This document shows positions 6,868-58,343 of a DNA stretch of 64,000 bases, piece after piece. A program made the translations under genes and the position numbers. Origin of the DNA: Lepus europaeus (lineage: Eukaryota; Chordata; Mammalia; Lagomorpha; Leporidae). The first letter of the stretch is position 1. Each line of letters opens with the position of its first letter. The DNA is taken from assembly GCF_033115175.1 (NCBI RefSeq), contig NC_084850.1, forward strand, positions 20,553,218-20,617,217, read 5' to 3'. The notes under the pieces are model-generated. The model was not told the DNA's origin and made no database searches. It saw only the letters and a program-made list of their open reading frames with translations.

Positions 6868-6873
6868 GCCTGA

Positions 6874-7360
6874 TGTTGGGTCTTAGTCCACCCGTACAAG
6901 GATGGACTGGGTCCGAGGAAAGGTAAGTGCGCCGCTCGCCCGTTCCCCAGCCTCCCGGTCCCGGAGACAATCAGACGCAGCGGGGAGCCAAGTCTAGCAA
7001 GGACTCATTTACTTCCTGCGAAACAGAACCTTTTATAGCACAAAACTGCAGAGTCATTGGGGCAGGGCTAAGGACCAACCAATCACTTACACAGTCACCT
7101 TACGGGGGGATTTCTATAGGACTAGCCCTATGTCTATACACTTGTTACTAGTTTTGTTACCTTCCCTGATGTTGCGCAGCCAGTTAGTTTTAGTGGTAAA
7201 CAAATTTGGATTCCGCCCATCTTATTTCCTCTGGGCGCCATCTTACTTGGCTCCGCGTGGCTTCGTTCCGCGCAGCTCGGGCGGGGGCACCCTGGAGCAG
7301 CTGCGCATGCGGAGCCCCCGGGCCTGGCCTGGCCTGGCCTGGCCGCGCTCATGCCCCACA
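6874..7360 (-). repeat. 3' LTR of the class II ERV
   Basis: This 487-bp LTR begins TGTGGGGCATGAG in its own sense and ends ACCCAACA, with TG/CA termini. A TATAAAAGG box lies near 7029-7037. Near its U3 start is a run of about five GGCCT/AGGCC pentamers (7316-7343). It is equal in length to the 5' LTR, with eight substitutions and no indels. Confidence 0.95.
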
Positions 7361-7376
7361 GATTCCCCCTTTTTGT
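7361..7376 (-). promoter_or_regulatory. Polypurine tract
   Basis: In provirus sense this reads AAAACAAAAAGGGGGAATC directly before the 3' LTR (TGTGGGG). Its position and A-then-G run fit the primer site for plus-strand DNA synthesis in retroviruses. Confidence 0.85.
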
Positions 7377-7381
7377 TTTAG

Positions 7382-7615
7382 CACGCGGTCCCTGTCTTAG
7401 GTTGCCCCCAGCCGTCCTTGCCCTTACCCGTCATTGGTAACCCAGGCAGCTTGGCCATGAGCCCTGTCTTAGGTTGGTGCAGGACGCTGGGTGCTTTACC
7501 CGTCTTGGGGTGTCGCGTGACTTGTAATTATGGGGGCGTGGTGAGCTTTCTCCACTGCCTGTCTTAGGTTGTTCCGGTCCATCCGGAATCTTACCCGTCA
7601 TTGGCAATGTGGAGA
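7382..7615 (-). promoter_or_regulatory. CTE-like RNA export element with three loop modules
   Basis: In provirus sense, three copies of CAACCTAAGACAGG (plus coordinates 7558-7571, 7463-7476, 7391-7404; identical) alternate with three copies of CCAA(T)GACGGGTAA (7591-7604, 7496-7509, 7424-7437). Each pair is offset by exactly 33 bases. These are the paired strands of the NXF1/TAP-binding internal loops of the type D retrovirus constitutive transport element, which also lies between env and the 3' LTR. The distal two pairs form a double-loop hairpin: lower stem CACGCG/CGCGTG (7514-7519 with 7382-7387) and middle stem (7477-7495 with 7405-7423). The proximal pair folds alone (TCTCCAC/GTGGAGA, 7609-7615 with 7549-7555; TTCCGG/CCGGAA, 7583-7588 with 7572-7577). 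Function is inferred. Confidence 0.88.
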
Positions 7616-7671
7616 GCACCGGGGGCGCTTCCCCAGTTCAGGGGATCGTAGCCCTCTGTGGCTAGCAGCCT

Positions 7672-7911
7672 CTAGTAATGAACCTCAACCTGTTTTACCC
7701 TTGTTGCCTCTATGCGCTGTTGTATAAACTGTATAAGCCTATTCGTTATGCATGGGCCAATAGCAAGGATTAAAAGCAGGGCAAGAAGCAGTCCAAGAAA
7801 AGAGAAGAGGTAGGGAAAGAGTCCATTAAGGCTTGTCCAAAAGATGCTTTCTTGGAGTTCTCTTCGTCTTTTTCAGGTCCTCCTGAAGTGTTTTGATGAT
7901 CTCGTTTGGGT
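7672..7911 (-). pseudogene. env: Env transmembrane subunit, C-terminal remnant
   Basis: In provirus sense the frame ending at the stop (7672-7674) encodes a hydrophobic membrane anchor containing GLLLALLLILAIGPCI, then an amphipathic tail with INRLIQFIQQ-like character. This is the layout of the gammaretrovirus-type transmembrane protein used by type D betaretroviruses. About 15 further codons with a heptad-like pattern lie in a different frame above 7860, implying a single-base shift. Everything upstream is deleted: the integrase stop (7949) sits only about 40 bases away. No envelope function is possible. Confidence 0.75.
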
Positions 7912-7948
7912 CATTGAATCCCCCGTCACTGGGCCAGGCACTTCAGGA

Positions 7949-8480
7949 TCACAGCGGAAGAGTAGCGTCCACATCATCGCCTGCCTTTAGATTTCGATCT
8001 CCATCCATTTCTGGAAGAGGAAAGACAAGGGGATCTCCCTCAGGGGCAAACTGCTCCCTGGGTGGGTTGTTACTTGCATCGGGCATAGGCCTGATATTTC
8101 TGGCCAGTATTCAAATTGGAGTCAACTCCCCTATGGGGAACACACAGCCAAATCCTCTTCCCAACTGAATCAGCGGGTCAGGCCCTCTCCAGAGTCGGGT
8201 GAGAGGGTCTCTCCATCTAACGAGCATCTGAGGTTTAGGGATTAAATGTCCCCCATGTTTTTGGAACCTTGACTCCCTTGACCCTTTTGAAAAATTTAAA
8301 ATATTGATAGTAAACAAGGCCTTATGTAACTGTAGATGGGGGGTAGCCACTCCCCCCCCCCTTTTTTTTTGAGGCATTGATGGTTTTTTTCCACCATAGC
8401 CTGTTCCTGTGGGTTGTGAGGAATTTTAGTAGAGTGTTGAATCATTTTACGTCTTGGCAGCACTTTTAAACATTTCAATT
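7949..8480 (-). pseudogene. pol: Integrase C-terminal remnant of pol
   Basis: The first piece (8480 to about 8350) holds the end of the catalytic core, with IPHNPQEQAMVEKNHQ, where the E matches the third acidic catalytic position. After a frameshift in the C/T run at 8350-8372, the second piece gives HKALFTINILNF and the SH3-like domain with RGFGCVFP. A TGA at 8111-8113 stands where integrases usually have Trp. The remaining frame runs to a stop at 7949. Frameshift, nonsense codon and loss of the first two thirds make it inactive. Confidence 0.85.
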
Positions 8481-10225: not shown

Positions 10226-11650
10226 CTAGCAGGACTGGCTGTGGGGTTGGTAGGCAGGCTGTTTAGAAGATGGCGGCGGGCGATTCAAGGGAGGGGAATA
10301 ACCATAAAGGGGTGGCCACATGGGCAGAATTGGAGGCGCAGTGCATTGAGGCAGTGCTGGGCTTTTAGGGGTTGCTGCCACACCTGAAAGCTCCACCTTA
10401 GTTTTAACTGCCTCTGGGGATTTCTGAGCCTCCCTCAGGCCAGCGCAGGCCTTCAGATGATTAGCATTCATTCCTTCCCAAACAAGCATTTTAACAAACT
10501 GATCCCGAAGGTCCCCAGCCAGTAACTTACAACGGAGACTGTGTTCGACCCTAACTACAAAATCTGGCAATGACTTTCCTGGCTTTTGTCGCACCCCCGC
10601 GATGGGAGATTCTGTGGGCCCCTCATCCAGCTTGTACCAAGCATTAAGTCCTGCCTGCCTCACTTGTTCATGGTATGGAGCAGGTAGCACAGCTTGCTGG
10701 ATCCCAGTAGAGAACCCTTCCCCCATCCCAGCCAGCATAGCATATGTAATAGGGATAGCTGGCTGGGTTGCTTGGTTGGCTTCCGCTCTCACCCGGCACT
10801 CCTCCTTAAAGAAGGCGCACCACTTTATGAACTGGAAACTCGCGGGGACTGCCTTGGCCACATCCAACCAGTCCTTGGGGATGCATGGGTGATAGGCTAT
10901 ATCTTGTAGCAATGTTTGTGCCCAGGGGGAATCTGGCCCGTCTTCCACCACTGCCTTGCGAAGCTCCTTTAAGTCCTTCCCTTCCCAGGGATACCACTCC
11001 AGAGCCCTGTTGCCACCTGGAGCTAAATTAACAGGGTAGGCCTGAGGCAGCAGGTTCCCTGGCCCAGAGTTCACTTCCCTATGCTGCTTTATGTCCACCG
11101 GATAAGCTTCCACAAAGGTCGCCTCATTTCTCCTCTCCCCTCCTGGGCAATCATAAGTGCCCAGATCACAAAGCTCCCTCCGTGGCTCTACATAGGGGGA
11201 GGCCCCCTCTGCCCCGGGGAGGTATGGGGGTGGTCCCGGCCCTTCTAGGGTGGATGGGCTAGGCGGGACGATTTTTACTTTTGTTTTTACCTCAACAGTT
11301 CGTGCCTCCACAGGCTCTCTGCATTCCTGATCAAACTTAGCCCATTTTCTCTCCCCGCCATCTTCCTCTGAGGCTTTAGGCTCTCCCAAGTCTTGCACTT
11401 CCTCTTTCTCCCTCCCGCCCTCCGAAGCTAGGGTTATAGCGTCTGGGTGGAAGGATGCTTTAAGGGCTGTATCAAAATGTCTCTCCCTCTTAAGGGTGAG
11501 TTTTTCCACCCATGACCAAGTGTTCCAAGAAAAGAGATTGGCCGTCTGAACCCAAAGGGCCAAGGTTATGACAGCTACCCAGACACTTTTTAACATATAG
11601 TGTAAGGCCTTTAAGGCCAGGTCCTTTTGGGACGAAACTGCATAAACCAT
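10226..11650 (-). CDS. gag: ERV Gag polyprotein, open but lacking zinc knuckles
   Basis: An uninterrupted frame runs from the ATG at 11650 to TAG at 10226 (474 codons). It also stays open upstream through the leader and LTR. The first ~60 residues have a matrix-like pattern (LALKALHYMLK). An acidic, Pro-rich middle follows. From about residue 260 a class II capsid is seen: LKELRKAV, WLDVAKAV, FIKWCAFFKEEC and ITYAMLAGMGEGF, as in IAP and type D viruses. The major homology region is near PGKSLPDFVVRVEHSL. The frame ends just after a Pro-rich stretch, before any CCHC knuckle. Residue 2 is Val, so the usual myristoylated Gly is absent. An alternative ATG at 11710 abuts the primer site. It might still make a truncated Gag. 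Confidence 0.85.
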   Translation of the reverse strand: MVYAVSSQKDLALKALHYMLKSVWVAVITLALWVQTANLFSWNTWSWVEKLTLKRERHFDTALKASFHPDAITLASEGGREKEEVQDLGEPKASEEDGGERKWAKFDQECREPVEARTVEVKTKVKIVPPSPSTLEGPGPPPYLPGAEGASPYVEPRRELCDLGTYDCPGGERRNEATFVEAYPVDIKQHREVNSGPGNLLPQAYPVNLAPGGNRALEWYPWEGKDLKELRKAVVEDGPDSPWAQTLLQDIAYHPCIPKDWLDVAKAVPASFQFIKWCAFFKEECRVRAEANQATQPAIPITYAMLAGMGEGFSTGIQQAVLPAPYHEQVRQAGLNAWYKLDEGPTESPIAGVRQKPGKSLPDFVVRVEHSLRCKLLAGDLRDQFVKMLVWEGMNANHLKACAGLREAQKSPEAVKTKVELSGVAATPKSPALPQCTAPPILPMWPPLYGYSPPLNRPPPSSKQPAYQPHSQSC

Positions 11651-11710
11651 ACTAAGGTTTTCACTTACCCTGAGAGACCGCTTAGCCTCGGCCGAAAAGT
11701 AACTGTTCAT

Positions 11711-11728
11711 GCCCCACGTTGGGCGCCA
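11711..11728 (-). promoter_or_regulatory. Primer binding site, tRNA-Lys(1,2) type
   Basis: In provirus sense the 18 bases TGGCGCCCAACGTGGGGC follow the 5' LTR after a 2-base TC spacer. This matches the tRNA-Lys1,2 primer site known from type D betaretroviruses. It fixes the provirus orientation and supports a betaretroviral (class II) assignment. Confidence 0.95.
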
Positions 11729-11730
11729 GA

Positions 11731-12217
11731 TGTTGGGTCTTAGTCCACCCGTACAAGGAGGGACTGGGTCCGAGGAAAGGTAAGTGCGCCGCTCGCCCAT
11801 TCCCCAGCCTCCCGGTCCTGGAGACAATCAGACGCAGCGGGGAGCCAAGTCTAGCAAGGACTCATTTACTTCCTGCGAAACAGAACCTTTTATAGCACAA
11901 AACTGCAGAGTCATTGGGGCAGGGCTAAGGACCAATCAATCACTTACACAGTCACCTTACGGGGGGATTTCTATAGGACTAGCTCTATGTCTATACACTT
12001 GTTACTAGTTTTGTTACCTTCCCTGATGTTGCGCAGCCAGTTAGTTTTAGTGGTAAACAACTTTGGATTCCGCCCATCTTACTTCCTCTGGGCGCCATCT
12101 TACTTGGCTCCGCGTGGCTTCATTCCGCGCAGCTCGGGCGGGGGCACCCTGGAGCAGCTGCGCATGCGGAGCCCCCGGGCCTGGCCTGGCCTGGCCTGGC
12201 CGCGCTCATGCCCCACA
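11731..12217 (-). repeat. 5' LTR of the class II ERV
   Basis: This 487-bp LTR is bounded by TG and CA and pairs with 6874-7360. The TATAAAAGG box is at about 11886-11894. The U3 starts with the AGGCC pentamer run near 12178-12200. The external GCCTGA duplication follows at 12218. Confidence 0.95.
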
Positions 12218-17370: not shown

Positions 17371-17696
17371 TTCTTTTTTTTTTTTTTGACAGGCAGAGTG
17401 GACAGTGAGAGAGAGAGACAGAGAGAAAGGTCTTCCTTTTTGCCGTTGGTTCACCCTCCAATGGCCGCTGCGGTAGGCGCGCTGCGGCCGGCACACCGCG
17501 CTGATCCAATGGCAGGAGCCAGGTGCTTCTCCTGGTCTCCCATGGGGTGCAGGGCCAAAGAACTTGGGCCATCCTCCACTGCACTCCCTGGTCACAGCAG
17601 AGAGCTGGCCTGGAAGAGGGTCAACTGGGACAGGATCAGTGCCCCGACCGGGACTAGAACCTGGTGTGCCGGCGCCGCAAGGCAGAGGATTAGCCT
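17371..17696 (-). mobile_element. Young CSINE, inverted
   Basis: T-run then GACAGGCAGAGTGGACAGTG, and the GGCGCCGCAAGGCAGAGGAT head, close to the consensus of other young copies here. About 18 bases of the 5' end are missing. Confidence 0.92.
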
Positions 17697-19848
17697 AGTC
17701 TGATTGGGAGAAAATCGAGGCATCAAATGGAGAAAATGAGTCTTGTGTTGAGTCATGGAATAAGAGAGAGTTTCCCTGTTCAATGTGAGCAGGGGCAGGA
17801 GCCAGGAGGCATAGAGGAGCAACACACAAAACCTAGAGGAATGGGCAGGTAAACCATGACATAAGAATCAGAACCAGGGAACCAGGGAACAGAACTATGA
17901 GAGAAATGTTGAAAAGAATCACTTGAAATTGGACACAGAGGAAAAAAAAGACAAGTCAAATTGTTGTTTAATGAAATGCTTCTGGAAAGGCATTCAACTA
18001 GTTTTGATAACTGGAGGTGAAATTCTGTGTATTTAAAACCACTTAACCACAACAAGCAAGACATGATCATTATGGAAGAGCTACAGAAACAGCTAAACAC
18101 AAAGCAATTCCTTATAATCCATAATTCTATTACTAGAGAAAACTATTGTCTATATTTTAGCATTTGCCCAGCTTCTAATGTTTTTGTGTGTCCCTTGAAT
18201 ATACCTATGACTATTGGCCATATATTTTAGGGGTGGGGACCATCCAGTCTGTGGTCAATATAAGTCCCACAAAACCGTTTGGTCTGGCCCTGCCAAGGCA
18301 ACCTCAGGCAGGACTAAAAACTCAGAAAATCTATAGCAGACTAGTTTTGTTGGTAATTTTGTATGGCCCTGATGGCTTGTGAATGATGTTATAAATACCC
18401 ACATGGCCCTTGGCAAAGAACAGTGCCCCACCACTGCACTAGAAAGAATGATGAAGAAAATCCATGTTATAAAACAGAAGTCACCACAAAGAAGAAGAAT
18501 CTGCATTGGGAAAGAAGAACCTACATTTCCAGGAGTGAGGCTTCAAACACCCCTCCATCTCTCCTTTGTAGGTCACATTCAAATGTGTGGATTTATCAGG
18601 AACAGCAAGCGTGAAAGCCCACGGGAATAAGAGACTGCCTCCAAGCTAAGTCTTACTTGGAAGGATTTTAGCTCTTCAGACAGCTCACTTTCTTCCACAC
18701 TGGCCGTACCTTTCTGCCACATCTCAGTGGCATCCTGCCCTTCTCATCACTATTGAAGCAAAAGGACTCACCCATTGTGCCATGCTCAGAAGAACTTGCC
18801 ACTGCTTCTGTCAGTCTTCCAAATTGCTGTCATATGTGAGATAGATGGGTCAGCAAGGTCAGCACCCTTAGGTTCAGATGCAAAAATTCATTAACAAGCC
18901 CATCTACCTTATATTCTCTTGACTCTTCATGTGTCAAATGAGGAATAAAGCAGTATCTGCAGAATACGGTTGTCAATAAATTCACACATGTATGTAATGG
19001 TTAAGGTCTATGAGCATCTTGCAGAAAGAAGCTGTTATCAATGTAGATACAAATGAAGTATGTTAAGCTTCAACTATTATTATGCCTTATGGTTATCAAA
19101 ACACAGTGAAAAATTGCATCTCCGTCTTCCTTCTCATCTCCTAGACAAAGCATTCAAAGACACCTAGAGATCTGTTGTTGGCCCCAAACTGCACAAGCAA
19201 ACCAGGTAGGTAGCTTTTGTGATCTGATTCCAGCAACTGGGCCACAAAAGCAGTCCACTGGTCTCCAAAGGAAGCAGATATGTGACACAGCCACTTGCTG
19301 TCTCATATTTGCCTGTTTGTGATGCAAAACCAAATTCCTGTGCAATTGAGGGCATTTTGCTTCTGGAAAGGTAAAAAACACACCTGCAGCAGGAGGCAAG
19401 TGAGAAAAGGCAAGGGTACTGCACTCAAGGACTTTCTGTGTCAGTCCCTTCATGCCTTTGCTGAACAAGGAGTGGAGGCTTGGGGTGCAGGCAGAATTAG
19501 CTCTCCAGCACTGCTACATCTGGGACAGTGCAGGTCCCCATGCATGCATGCACAGGATGGAGCCCGCACTGTACACACCCTTTGAAGACCTGACAGGGGC
19601 CGGTGTTATGCTGTTGTGTGTAAAGCCACCACCTCTGAGGCCAGCATCCTATATGGGAGCTAGTTCATGTCCCAGCTGCTTCACTTCCAATCCACTTCTC
19701 TGCTAATGGCTTCGGAAAAGCAACAAAAGATGGCCCAAGTGCTTGGCCCCTGCCACCCACATGGAGACCTAGATGGACATCCTGCATCCTGGGCCTGGTT
19801 TGACCCTGGCCATTCAAGCCATTTGAGGAATGAACCAGCAAATGGAAG

Positions 19849-56800: not shown

Positions 56801-57806
56801 TGTTCATGAATGCAAATTTTGCTTTCACACAGTAAGTATTTTTTAAAGTGAAAATTTCTGTCCCTACTGCCAGCCTTCTAATCCACAGACCCCCAACAAT
56901 AGGCACACAATCATAGCTCAAGCATCCAACCAGGGTTGAGCAGGCTGTATGTTATCAGTCTGCCTTTACTATATTGAGTGCTTGCCTGGGATCCCTGCCA
57001 CATTGAATTGTACCTTCCAATTTTCTCTGATAACCCAGATTATCCAATCCTTCATAGCCAGGGGAGGATTTCAAGGGGGAAAGAGGAAGGAATGGAAGAA
57101 AAAATGAGGGAGAAGCAGCCACATGATTTGGTTGCAAGAAGATAGCCAGTGGGCCCTGCTGTGTACACTTCTCTCCCAAGGGCACACATCTTCTCACTCA
57201 CCAGAAAGGCCAAGGACAGATATCCAGAGGAGGGCAGTGGAGGGTCTTTCTTTGTAGCCCCGAGATGTGTGTTTCTGCCTCAGAGGACAAGACCCTCAGC
57301 ATCCTGACTCCCTACAGTTCACTGCAGGCGCTTTTCTTTTCCACTATCTTTGTTCGCCTCTTTTCTTTCCATTATTTGTTTTTCTCTATTGCCTCCACAG
57401 AGCTAACTTAACCCTTGACTGCTACCTTTTCTTCCCTTCAGTCTCTGGCAGGGCAGTCCAATATTTGAATCATTTCTTTTTTCCCAATTCTTTCTTGACT
57501 TTTAGTTCCTTTTCTGAGAACTGGTCTTGCCTCCTTGAGCATGAAAAGGCTAAGCCCACCACCTCTACTTCACCTTGACCCTAAAGATGACAAAATACAT
57601 TTTTCCCTACAACTAGAAAAATGTCTGCCACAAACTCTGAAAGCTGTGCCCTGACTCGTGCTGCATGTCTGTGACTTCAGGTCCTGGCTCGTGGTCTGAC
57701 AGGCACATCAGAAGAGAGATTTCCACTACATCCCCTGACAGTCCCCCAACCCGGACACACCCCTTCATCTTATTTCACCAGACACATAAGGATTCTTTCT
57801 GCTCAC

Positions 57807-58306
57807 CTCATTCTTTGTTTTAGCAGGTTCCCTGTGGAAGTACTGTGCCAGGGTCACAGCCTGCTTGAGGTTTTGAAGATGATGCTTCTGCAGCCAATCC
57901 TGAGTCTTCTGAGGCAGATAAGTCAGAAACCGCTCTAGTACCAGCAGTTCCATGATCTGCTCTTTCGAGTGGATCTCTGGCTGCAGCCACTGACGACATA
58001 GTTCCTGAACACGGCTGGCAGCCTCGAATGCTCCAGGTACTTCATCAAAACGGAAGCCCTGCAAGTGCTTGAGAGCTTTCTCAGGACCAATATTCTCTCT
58101 TTGTGGGCTGTATTTCTCACTCTTGCTGGAAACCTCTTTCATGGATCCCTTAAAGTCCCAGTTCACAATCCTCACTGTGGAGTACAAGTAAGCATCTGCC
58201 TTCAGCTCCCTCCTCATCTTCTCTAGGGATGGTTTTACTCCAGGGTGTGATCCCGACATCCCCTGGTGCCACTGTTCCCAATGAAAGATTCTTTTTTCCA
58301 AAGGCA
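57807..58306 (-). CDS. ZNF75D: ZNF75D-like SCAN exon
   Basis: Acceptor TTCTCTCCCTCAG and donor GTGAGC bound a 500-bp exon. The likely start ATG (58215-58217, MRRELKADAY) matches the position of the human start. Upstream open codons may be 5' untranslated sequence. Then come ENIGPEKALKHLQGFRFDEV and the SCAN domain: VQELCRQWLQPEIHSKEQI, then MELLVLERFLTYLPQKTQDW and HHLQNLKQAVTLAQYF. SCAN domains mediate dimer formation between zinc-finger proteins. From the ATG, 411 bases end in phase 0, so it can splice in frame to the KRAB exon. It ends KNE, as in ZNF75D. No damage is seen. Confidence 0.9.
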
Positions 58307-58343
58307 CTGAGGGAGAGAAGGAAAGAAAAAATCATGTCAAAAT

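Follow-up and report, generated by a model that had tools for sequence, protein, structure and literature searches.

A predicted type D-like constitutive transport element with a third NXF1 half-site in an endogenous retrovirus of Lepus europaeus

Between the env stop codon and the polypurine tract of a provirus in the window (the whole 64,000-nucleotide stretch of DNA that was analyzed), the minus strand carries an element (7382-7615) that is very probably a type D-like constitutive transport element (CTE) with a third predicted half-site for the mRNA export receptor NXF1. This reading is based on sequence, position, predicted fold, covariation across families, and retention within its family. 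That the three-module structure is real is well supported, and the role of NXF1 is predicted. The first-pass annotation of this DNA had proposed a three-module CTE, and its proposal agrees with the position, the fold, the AAGACA loops, the compensatory change across families, and the presence of the modules in 40 of 40 sampled copies described below.

The provirus surrounding the element

The provirus has minus-strand orientation, with ≈4.4 kb between its LTRs, and is listed here in its own 5' to 3' direction.

11731-12217, minus: 5' LTR (BLAST and sequence), followed on its inner side by the primer site TGGCGCCCAACGTGGGGC
10226-11827, minus: open frame with retroviral gag capsid, stop to stop, extending into the LTR (PF00607, 1.2e-34)
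8111-8425, minus: pol fragment with the integrase C-terminal domain (PF00552, 1.3e-9)
7672-7872, minus: end of env with the TM tail, stop codon at 7672-7674 (PF00429 TLV_coat, 5.2e-12, and reading frame)
7361-7379, minus: polypurine tract region AAAACAAAAAGGGGGAATC, directly before the 3' LTR (sequence)
6874-7360, minus: 3' LTR, about 487 bp, TG...CA (BLAST of the two LTR regions)

The two LTRs are 98.2% identical over 494 aligned positions, which include a few bases past the LTR ends, and the provirus is flanked on both sides by a 6-bp target duplication, TCAGGC (6868-6873 at the 3' LTR). We take the primer site to be of the lysine-tRNA type. Eight frames were scanned with Pfam, and the three that matched were the gag capsid, the integrase end, and the TLV_coat-type TM tail; large parts of pol and env are apparently absent. 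The gag frame matched capsids of ERV-K and other retroviruses in the PDB, and among the eight matches of a gag protein search the named relatives were rodent and musk-deer proteins (52-61% identical), the closest being from kangaroo rat (61%). A betaretroviral gag combined with a gammaretroviral-type env has been described as the type D pattern (PMC3621094, PMC11379458). The element (7615-7382) occupies most of the interval from the env stop codon at 7672 to the polypurine tract region at 7379-7361.

Elsewhere in the window, positions 960-1179 and 17477-17696, separated by 16 kb, form an inverted repeat of 220 nt with 93% complementarity that is probably two copies of an interspersed repeat. 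A 180-aa open frame at 57765-58307 (minus strand) presumably resembles a SCAN-domain protein.

Three motif pairs are predicted to fold into a single and a double hairpin

The element contains three copies each of two 14-nt motifs, X and Y, within two predicted hairpins.

7549-7615, minus: single-module hairpin of 67 nt, the 5'-most module, X1 opposite Y1 (fold and pair probabilities)
7591-7604, minus: motif X1, CCAATGACGGGTAA (motif match)
7558-7571, minus: motif Y1, CAACCTAAGACAGG (exact match)
7382-7519, minus: double hairpin of CTE type, 138 nt (folds, constrained topologies, cross-family double changes)
7496-7509, minus: motif X2, CCCAAGACGGGTAA (2 mismatches to CCAATGACGGGTAA)
7463-7476, minus: motif Y2, CAACCTAAGACAGG (exact match)
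7424-7437, minus: motif X3, CCAATGACGGGTAA (motif match)
7391-7404, minus: motif Y3, CAACCTAAGACAGG (exact match)

Read along the minus strand, the motifs follow one another as X1 Y1, X2 Y2, X3 Y3, and in all three pairs the start of X lies 33 bases before the start of the next Y. The three identical Y motifs and the 33-base spacing reported in the first-pass annotation were thus confirmed exactly; its three X motifs are also present, although they are not all identical, X2 having two mismatches. The motifs form direct repeats of 50 nt that are 62-76% alike. Between the three modules, Y is identical at 14 of 14 positions and X at 12-14 of 14, compared to only 5-8 of 19 in the spacers. When the 241-nt stretch was shuffled 5,000 times by dinucleotides, a 14-mer present three times arose in one shuffle, and the window holds one further Y-like site at ≤2 mismatches, at 18299.

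The unconstrained minimum-energy RNA fold of 7620-7380 consists of two hairpins with the pairings X1-Y1, X2-Y3, and Y2-X3. It reproduces what had been predicted for the reverse complement, namely motifs lying opposite each other, a double-loop hairpin with a CACGCG/CGCGTG base, and a separate hairpin for the remaining pair, its lower stem having 7 bp and its upper stem 6 bp. In the double hairpin, X2 faces Y3 in the outer loop and Y2 faces X3 in the inner loop, which is rotated by 180 degrees. This nested topology was calculated at -59.2 kcal/mol compared to -30.6 kcal/mol for local hairpins, so that pairing between neighbors costs 28.6 kcal/mol; the local-hairpin topology, in which every X pairs with its neighboring Y, was rejected as far less stable. 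Within the double hairpin, neighboring X and Y motifs are thus left unpaired with one another; they form the rotated double-loop design of the type D CTE. AAGACA is present in all three internal loops. The minimum-energy loops consist of 6+6 nt plus weak closing pairs and bulges, and the X2 loop is unlike those of X1 and X3.

The fold energy of the whole element gave a z-score of -2.74 (2 of 200 shuffles equally good), that of the double hairpin by itself -2.66 (1 of 200), and that of the first hairpin by itself, in the fold of 7540-7620, -3.78 (0 of 200). The helices were stable in contexts of 561 and 1,001 nt, with mean pair probabilities by helix of 0.67-0.99 overall and 0.84-0.98 in the first hairpin. 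In Rfam, the check suggested in the first-pass annotation produced no CTE-relevant match: the entire window contained no family at gathering score, and the sole match in 7000-8000 at E up to 1 was HOTTIP_3 at 7737-7842, well under its gathering score. A pattern search of IMG/VR requiring both motifs gave 0 matches. Y alone was found there in at least 120 stretches and was discarded as chance, with a single match in each of the 80 stretches among the matches listed.

Three modules are retained in young copies of the family

Across the genome (2.93 Gb), Y has 2,245 exact matches compared to 313 for a reversed control. The first 100 matches listed form 63 clusters on C1 and C2, 60 of which were classed by motif order and flanks: 20 belong to the three-module family of the window provirus (T3), 28 to a single-module family (S1), five, two, and one to the two-module families D2, D3, and D1, respectively, two to a further two-module family (P), and two were taken as chance matches. 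The 20 T3 clusters include one that is only partly covered (L082) and one without a recognizable Y1 (L020). The remaining three clusters are two S1 and one T3 (L225).

Since this sample had been chosen by Y, a second one was drawn by the env end, whose pattern has 307 genome matches at ≤3 mismatches (control 0). It comprised 40 new copies from the 100 matches listed, which have 0 or 1 mismatch and hence are young copies. All 40 contain three Y motifs at ≤1 mismatch each, with all three exact in 36, and 39 of 40 have a recognizable X3 (up to 4 mismatches), the exception (L255) having lost X3 in a deletion of ≈15 nt. Three modules are therefore the normal state of young copies. Two copies (L251, L261) have in common a 16-nt tandem duplication in the first hairpin, which moves the X1-Y1 spacing from 33 to 49.

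A DNA search found 688 candidate copies, and all 40 that were scored are 99-100% identical. The family has several hundred copies in the genome and looks recently expanded. Its LTR starts differ behind the same element (TGTGGGGCATGAGC and TGTGGGGAAATTAG, e.g., L010 and L073).

Stems change together across families, and the Y motif varies little

Pairing between families was assessed by an arm-swap test of 12 modules from six families, each with one representative (the window provirus, L009, L021, L059, L094, and L083, the last chosen for its exact X and having one stem base unlike most S1 copies). Mean energies were -13.0 kcal/mol for cognate compared to -5.9 kcal/mol for swapped upper arms, and -11.8 compared to -5.7 kcal/mol for lower arms; 0 of 20,000 permutations reached the observed value in either case. 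The 12 modules are not independent because outer and inner modules have the middle stem in common. Related families partly pair when swapped (T3 with D2, and P with S1), and a swapped arm outperforms the cognate one in the D1 inner upper arm and in the D3 outer, P outer, and S1 lower arms, among others.

For the double hairpin, an alignment of T3, D2, D1, and D3 (53-75% identical) shows double changes in 19 of 45 pairs, compared to 1-10 in controls in which the partner was slid by 1-3 columns. When each family is represented by a single row, 146 of 177 cells are paired (82.5%; shuffle mean 70.8%, maximum 75.7%). D1 and D3 account for 27 of the 31 unpaired cells, and these 27 are distributed among the base, middle, and tip stems. 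Within T3, by contrast, 18 unique rows are 97.4% paired compared to a shuffle mean of 97.0% and maximum of 97.5%. Sixty T3 rows (49 unique) show double changes in 8 of 72 pairs (0-3 in slid controls); the first hairpin contributes 2 of its 26 pairs. Nearly all of the double changes are single-copy changes of the C-to-T/G-to-A kind. Divergence within the family is too low for covariation there to serve as the main argument, and we rejected it as such. The first-pass claim that compensated stems point to selection for structure is supported across the four families and in the arm-swap test, but within T3 compensatory change is only slight.

Nucleotide diversity (pi) among the 40 env-selected copies is lowest in Y (0.005), followed by X (0.029), other stems (0.042), and other unpaired bases of the element (0.051). 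It is 0.065 from the env stop codon to the element, and the polypurine side (0.006) is as quiet as Y. Without CpG sites, the values are 0.005 for Y, 0.018 for X, 0.027 for other stems, 0.045 for other unpaired bases, and 0.047 for the interval from the env stop codon. Variants present in at least two of the 40 copies occur at 0 of 42 sites in Y, 4 of 42 in X, and 28 of 157 in the element outside the motifs. For these variants, the contrast between Y and the rest of the element has a Fisher p of 0.001; when CpG sites are left out, the counts are 0 of 42 compared to 15 of 138 (p = 0.024). The contrast is borderline when all segregating sites are counted (p = 0.05).

Relatives with one or two modules occur in the same genome

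The S1 family is an LTR element of 2.3 kb. It has a AAAAGGGGGAAA tract before its 3' LTR and a single module that lies about 100 bp upstream of this LTR. In three of the four copies viewed, the LTR pair aligns over 353-421 bp and is 98.8-99.5% alike; in the fourth (L221), a second full LTR was not seen. The longest sense frame of S1 (269 aa, in L219) contains the integrase C-terminal domain (PF00552). A 28-nt piece of the module has 892 genome matches at ≤1 mismatch (control 0), and the hairpin is seen by RNAalifold and pair counts in 26 of 28 copies aligned (L063 and L096 left out). The fold energy of 141 nt of one copy (L014) is no better than that of shuffles (z 0.32). Examples of this small, recently active element are L219:893-3190, L222, and L220.

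The classical two-module arrangement is found in D1 (L009), D2 (L021, L026, L027, L076, and L077), and D3 (L059 and L086). In P (L087/L223 and L094/L224), the order is X-X-Y-Y, with two X motifs on the 5' side and two Y motifs on the 3' side. Both P pairs are nested in the same orientation, in the free minimum for L087 and 1 kcal/mol above the minimum for L094; this fold depends on the flanks, as the outer pairing is absent when the stretch is cut with other flanks. L223 resembles the window provirus at 81-83% internally and 77% in the LTR, L224 matches it in short pieces only, and L223 and L224 have about 1 kb in common at 86%. By these similarities, P looks like a T3 relative with a different arrangement.

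In T3, D1, D2, and S1, the modules lie shortly before the polypurine tract. The first T3 module matches the S1 module over about 50 nt (81-84%), and the T3 double hairpin matches that of D2 over 113-114 nt (84-85%). Because the T3 modules resemble those of S1 and D2, we infer a possible origin: the comparison suggests that an S1/P-type half-site was joined to a D2-type double site. Converted with an assumed mutation rate, LTR identities of 98.2% in the T3 provirus of the window and 98.8-99.5% in three S1 pairs suggest that both kinds were active during the past few million years. A broader proposal, which we put forward tentatively and consider somewhat doubtful, is that the half-CTE is a free-standing module that occurs in at least four arrangements in the retroelements of one host lineage, singly (S1), as two antiparallel modules (D1-D3), as two nested modules of the same orientation (P), and as two plus one (T3).

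Discussion

By analogy with known CTEs, the element would bind NXF1 and promote export, and its third site would add activity. The two AAGACA loops of the double hairpin in two-fold symmetry could take an NXF1:NXT1 dimer, and since such a dimer fits the two-fold pair, the double hairpin would be the classical element. The 67-nt hairpin just upstream would provide a third, independent half-site as a landing place. All sites would jointly recruit the host mRNA export receptor directly, and unspliced (and env) RNA would exit the nucleus without a viral Rev-like protein. In the published work considered, each symmetrical CTE unit with AAGACA is reported to bind one Tap-p15 (PMC4330393), both CTE lobes to be capable of independent binding (PMC4330393, PMC4330390), and mutation of AAGACA to disrupt NXF1 binding (PMC4174252). 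A domain-swapped NXF1:NXT1 dimer in a crystal structure has been suggested to match the two-fold symmetry of the CTE (PMC4330390). As to site number, one CTE is described as weak and four as strong in HIV RNA export, with additive effects (PMC4829213), and in another study a different element, of gammaretroviral type, is reported to have shown little effect as one to three tandem copies (PMC4174252).

The export element could instead be the 3' double hairpin only, with the first hairpin a duplicated half-site that makes no contribution and is carried along in a successful family. The double hairpin by itself already has the classical two-site design, few pairs of the first hairpin show double changes (2 of 26), and because the family looks recently expanded, given the 99-100% identity of the 40 scored copies, retention in 40 of 40 copies need not mean selection. 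We nevertheless consider this explanation unlikely. Of the energy scores, that of the first hairpin is the best (z -3.78). Its lower X arm pairs at -16.4 kcal/mol with its own Y arm and at -5.9 kcal/mol at most with others although its motifs are unchanged, which is hard to reconcile with a passive duplicate. S1, also recently active, has kept single modules with this design.

It is less likely still that the modules act in another RNA step, such as translation or cytoplasmic routing, stability, or packaging, instead of or besides export. Published CTEs are reported also to route RNA to the microtubule organizing center and to affect expression (PMC4829213); yet AAGACA loops are the described NXF1 contact (PMC4330393), the modules of T3, D1, D2, and S1 occupy the place of a CTE shortly before the polypurine tract, and other RNA steps would follow NXF1 loading rather than replace it. 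That the motifs are DNA-level repeats, either recombination debris or protein-binding sites with an incidental fold, is very improbable. They do form direct repeats of 50 nt that are 62-76% alike, but the stems vary between modules and families and are on average complementary to their own partners, and the nested X/Y order follows RNA topology.

As a predicted CTE with a third half-site, the element belongs to a natural panel within one mammalian genome, in which half-sites occur singly, as antiparallel or parallel pairs, and in threes. In the studies cited, site number was varied through engineered copies (PMC4829213, PMC4174252), and the natural panel suits tests of the stoichiometry, cooperativity, and symmetry of NXF1 loading. 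If all arrangements are functional, NXF1-driven export would need neither two-fold symmetry nor an even site number, and the odd T3 site may load a further NXF1 or be bridged by an NXF1:NXT1 dimer to a second genome RNA. The elements also amount to hundreds of potential export signals across the host genome.

Comparison with known systems

Among the matches listed in a literature search of titles and abstract openings, we found no natural three-module or rabbit CTE, no report of a rabbit or lagomorph ERV with a CTE, and no natural multi-copy CTE; this coverage leaves outside most subscription papers, probably including descriptions of RERV-H. PMC8775094 contains neither the term CTE nor the term constitutive transport. 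Repeats in the window match two fragments (three matches each, 0 expected) that we take to be sequences of the rabbit C SINE, in keeping with a lagomorph host. The designation "rabbit-type" in the first-pass annotation is supported only indirectly, by these assumed fragments and by the number of candidate copies, 688, compared to about 700 reported for RERV-H/HRV-5, a defective betaretrovirus of rabbit (PMC3265301), a likeness in copy number. RERV-H is a likely candidate for the family of this provirus.

Like the CTE of Mason-Pfizer monkey virus and other simian type D retroviruses, the element lies between env and the 3' LTR and contains a long hairpin with two AAGACA internal loops related by two-fold rotation; the type D CTE is reported to work without viral protein (PMC4377836, PMC4330393, PMC4330390). 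Unlike the type D CTE, which has two half-sites, it has three, the extra module forming its own upstream hairpin, and it is therefore a variant of that element. It is also longer, at about 234 nt compared to about 130-175 nt, and the likeness between the two is one of design. The internal loops of the type D CTE are identical and 16 nt long; the minimum-energy loops here have 6+6 nt plus weak closing pairs and bulges, and the X2 loop differs from those of X1 and X3. The CTE in intron 10 of the NXF1 gene is described as having an AAGACA loop, binding NXF1, and exporting intron-containing RNA (PMC4174252, PMC4330390); it is cellular, and the likeness is in these described features. Bat endogenous betaretroviruses have predicted TAP-binding motifs within and downstream of env (PMC3621094). 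The gamma-CTE resembles the modules here in being a single stem-loop with AAGACA, but it lies in pol, and one to three copies were reported to have little effect and four to be active (PMC4174252).
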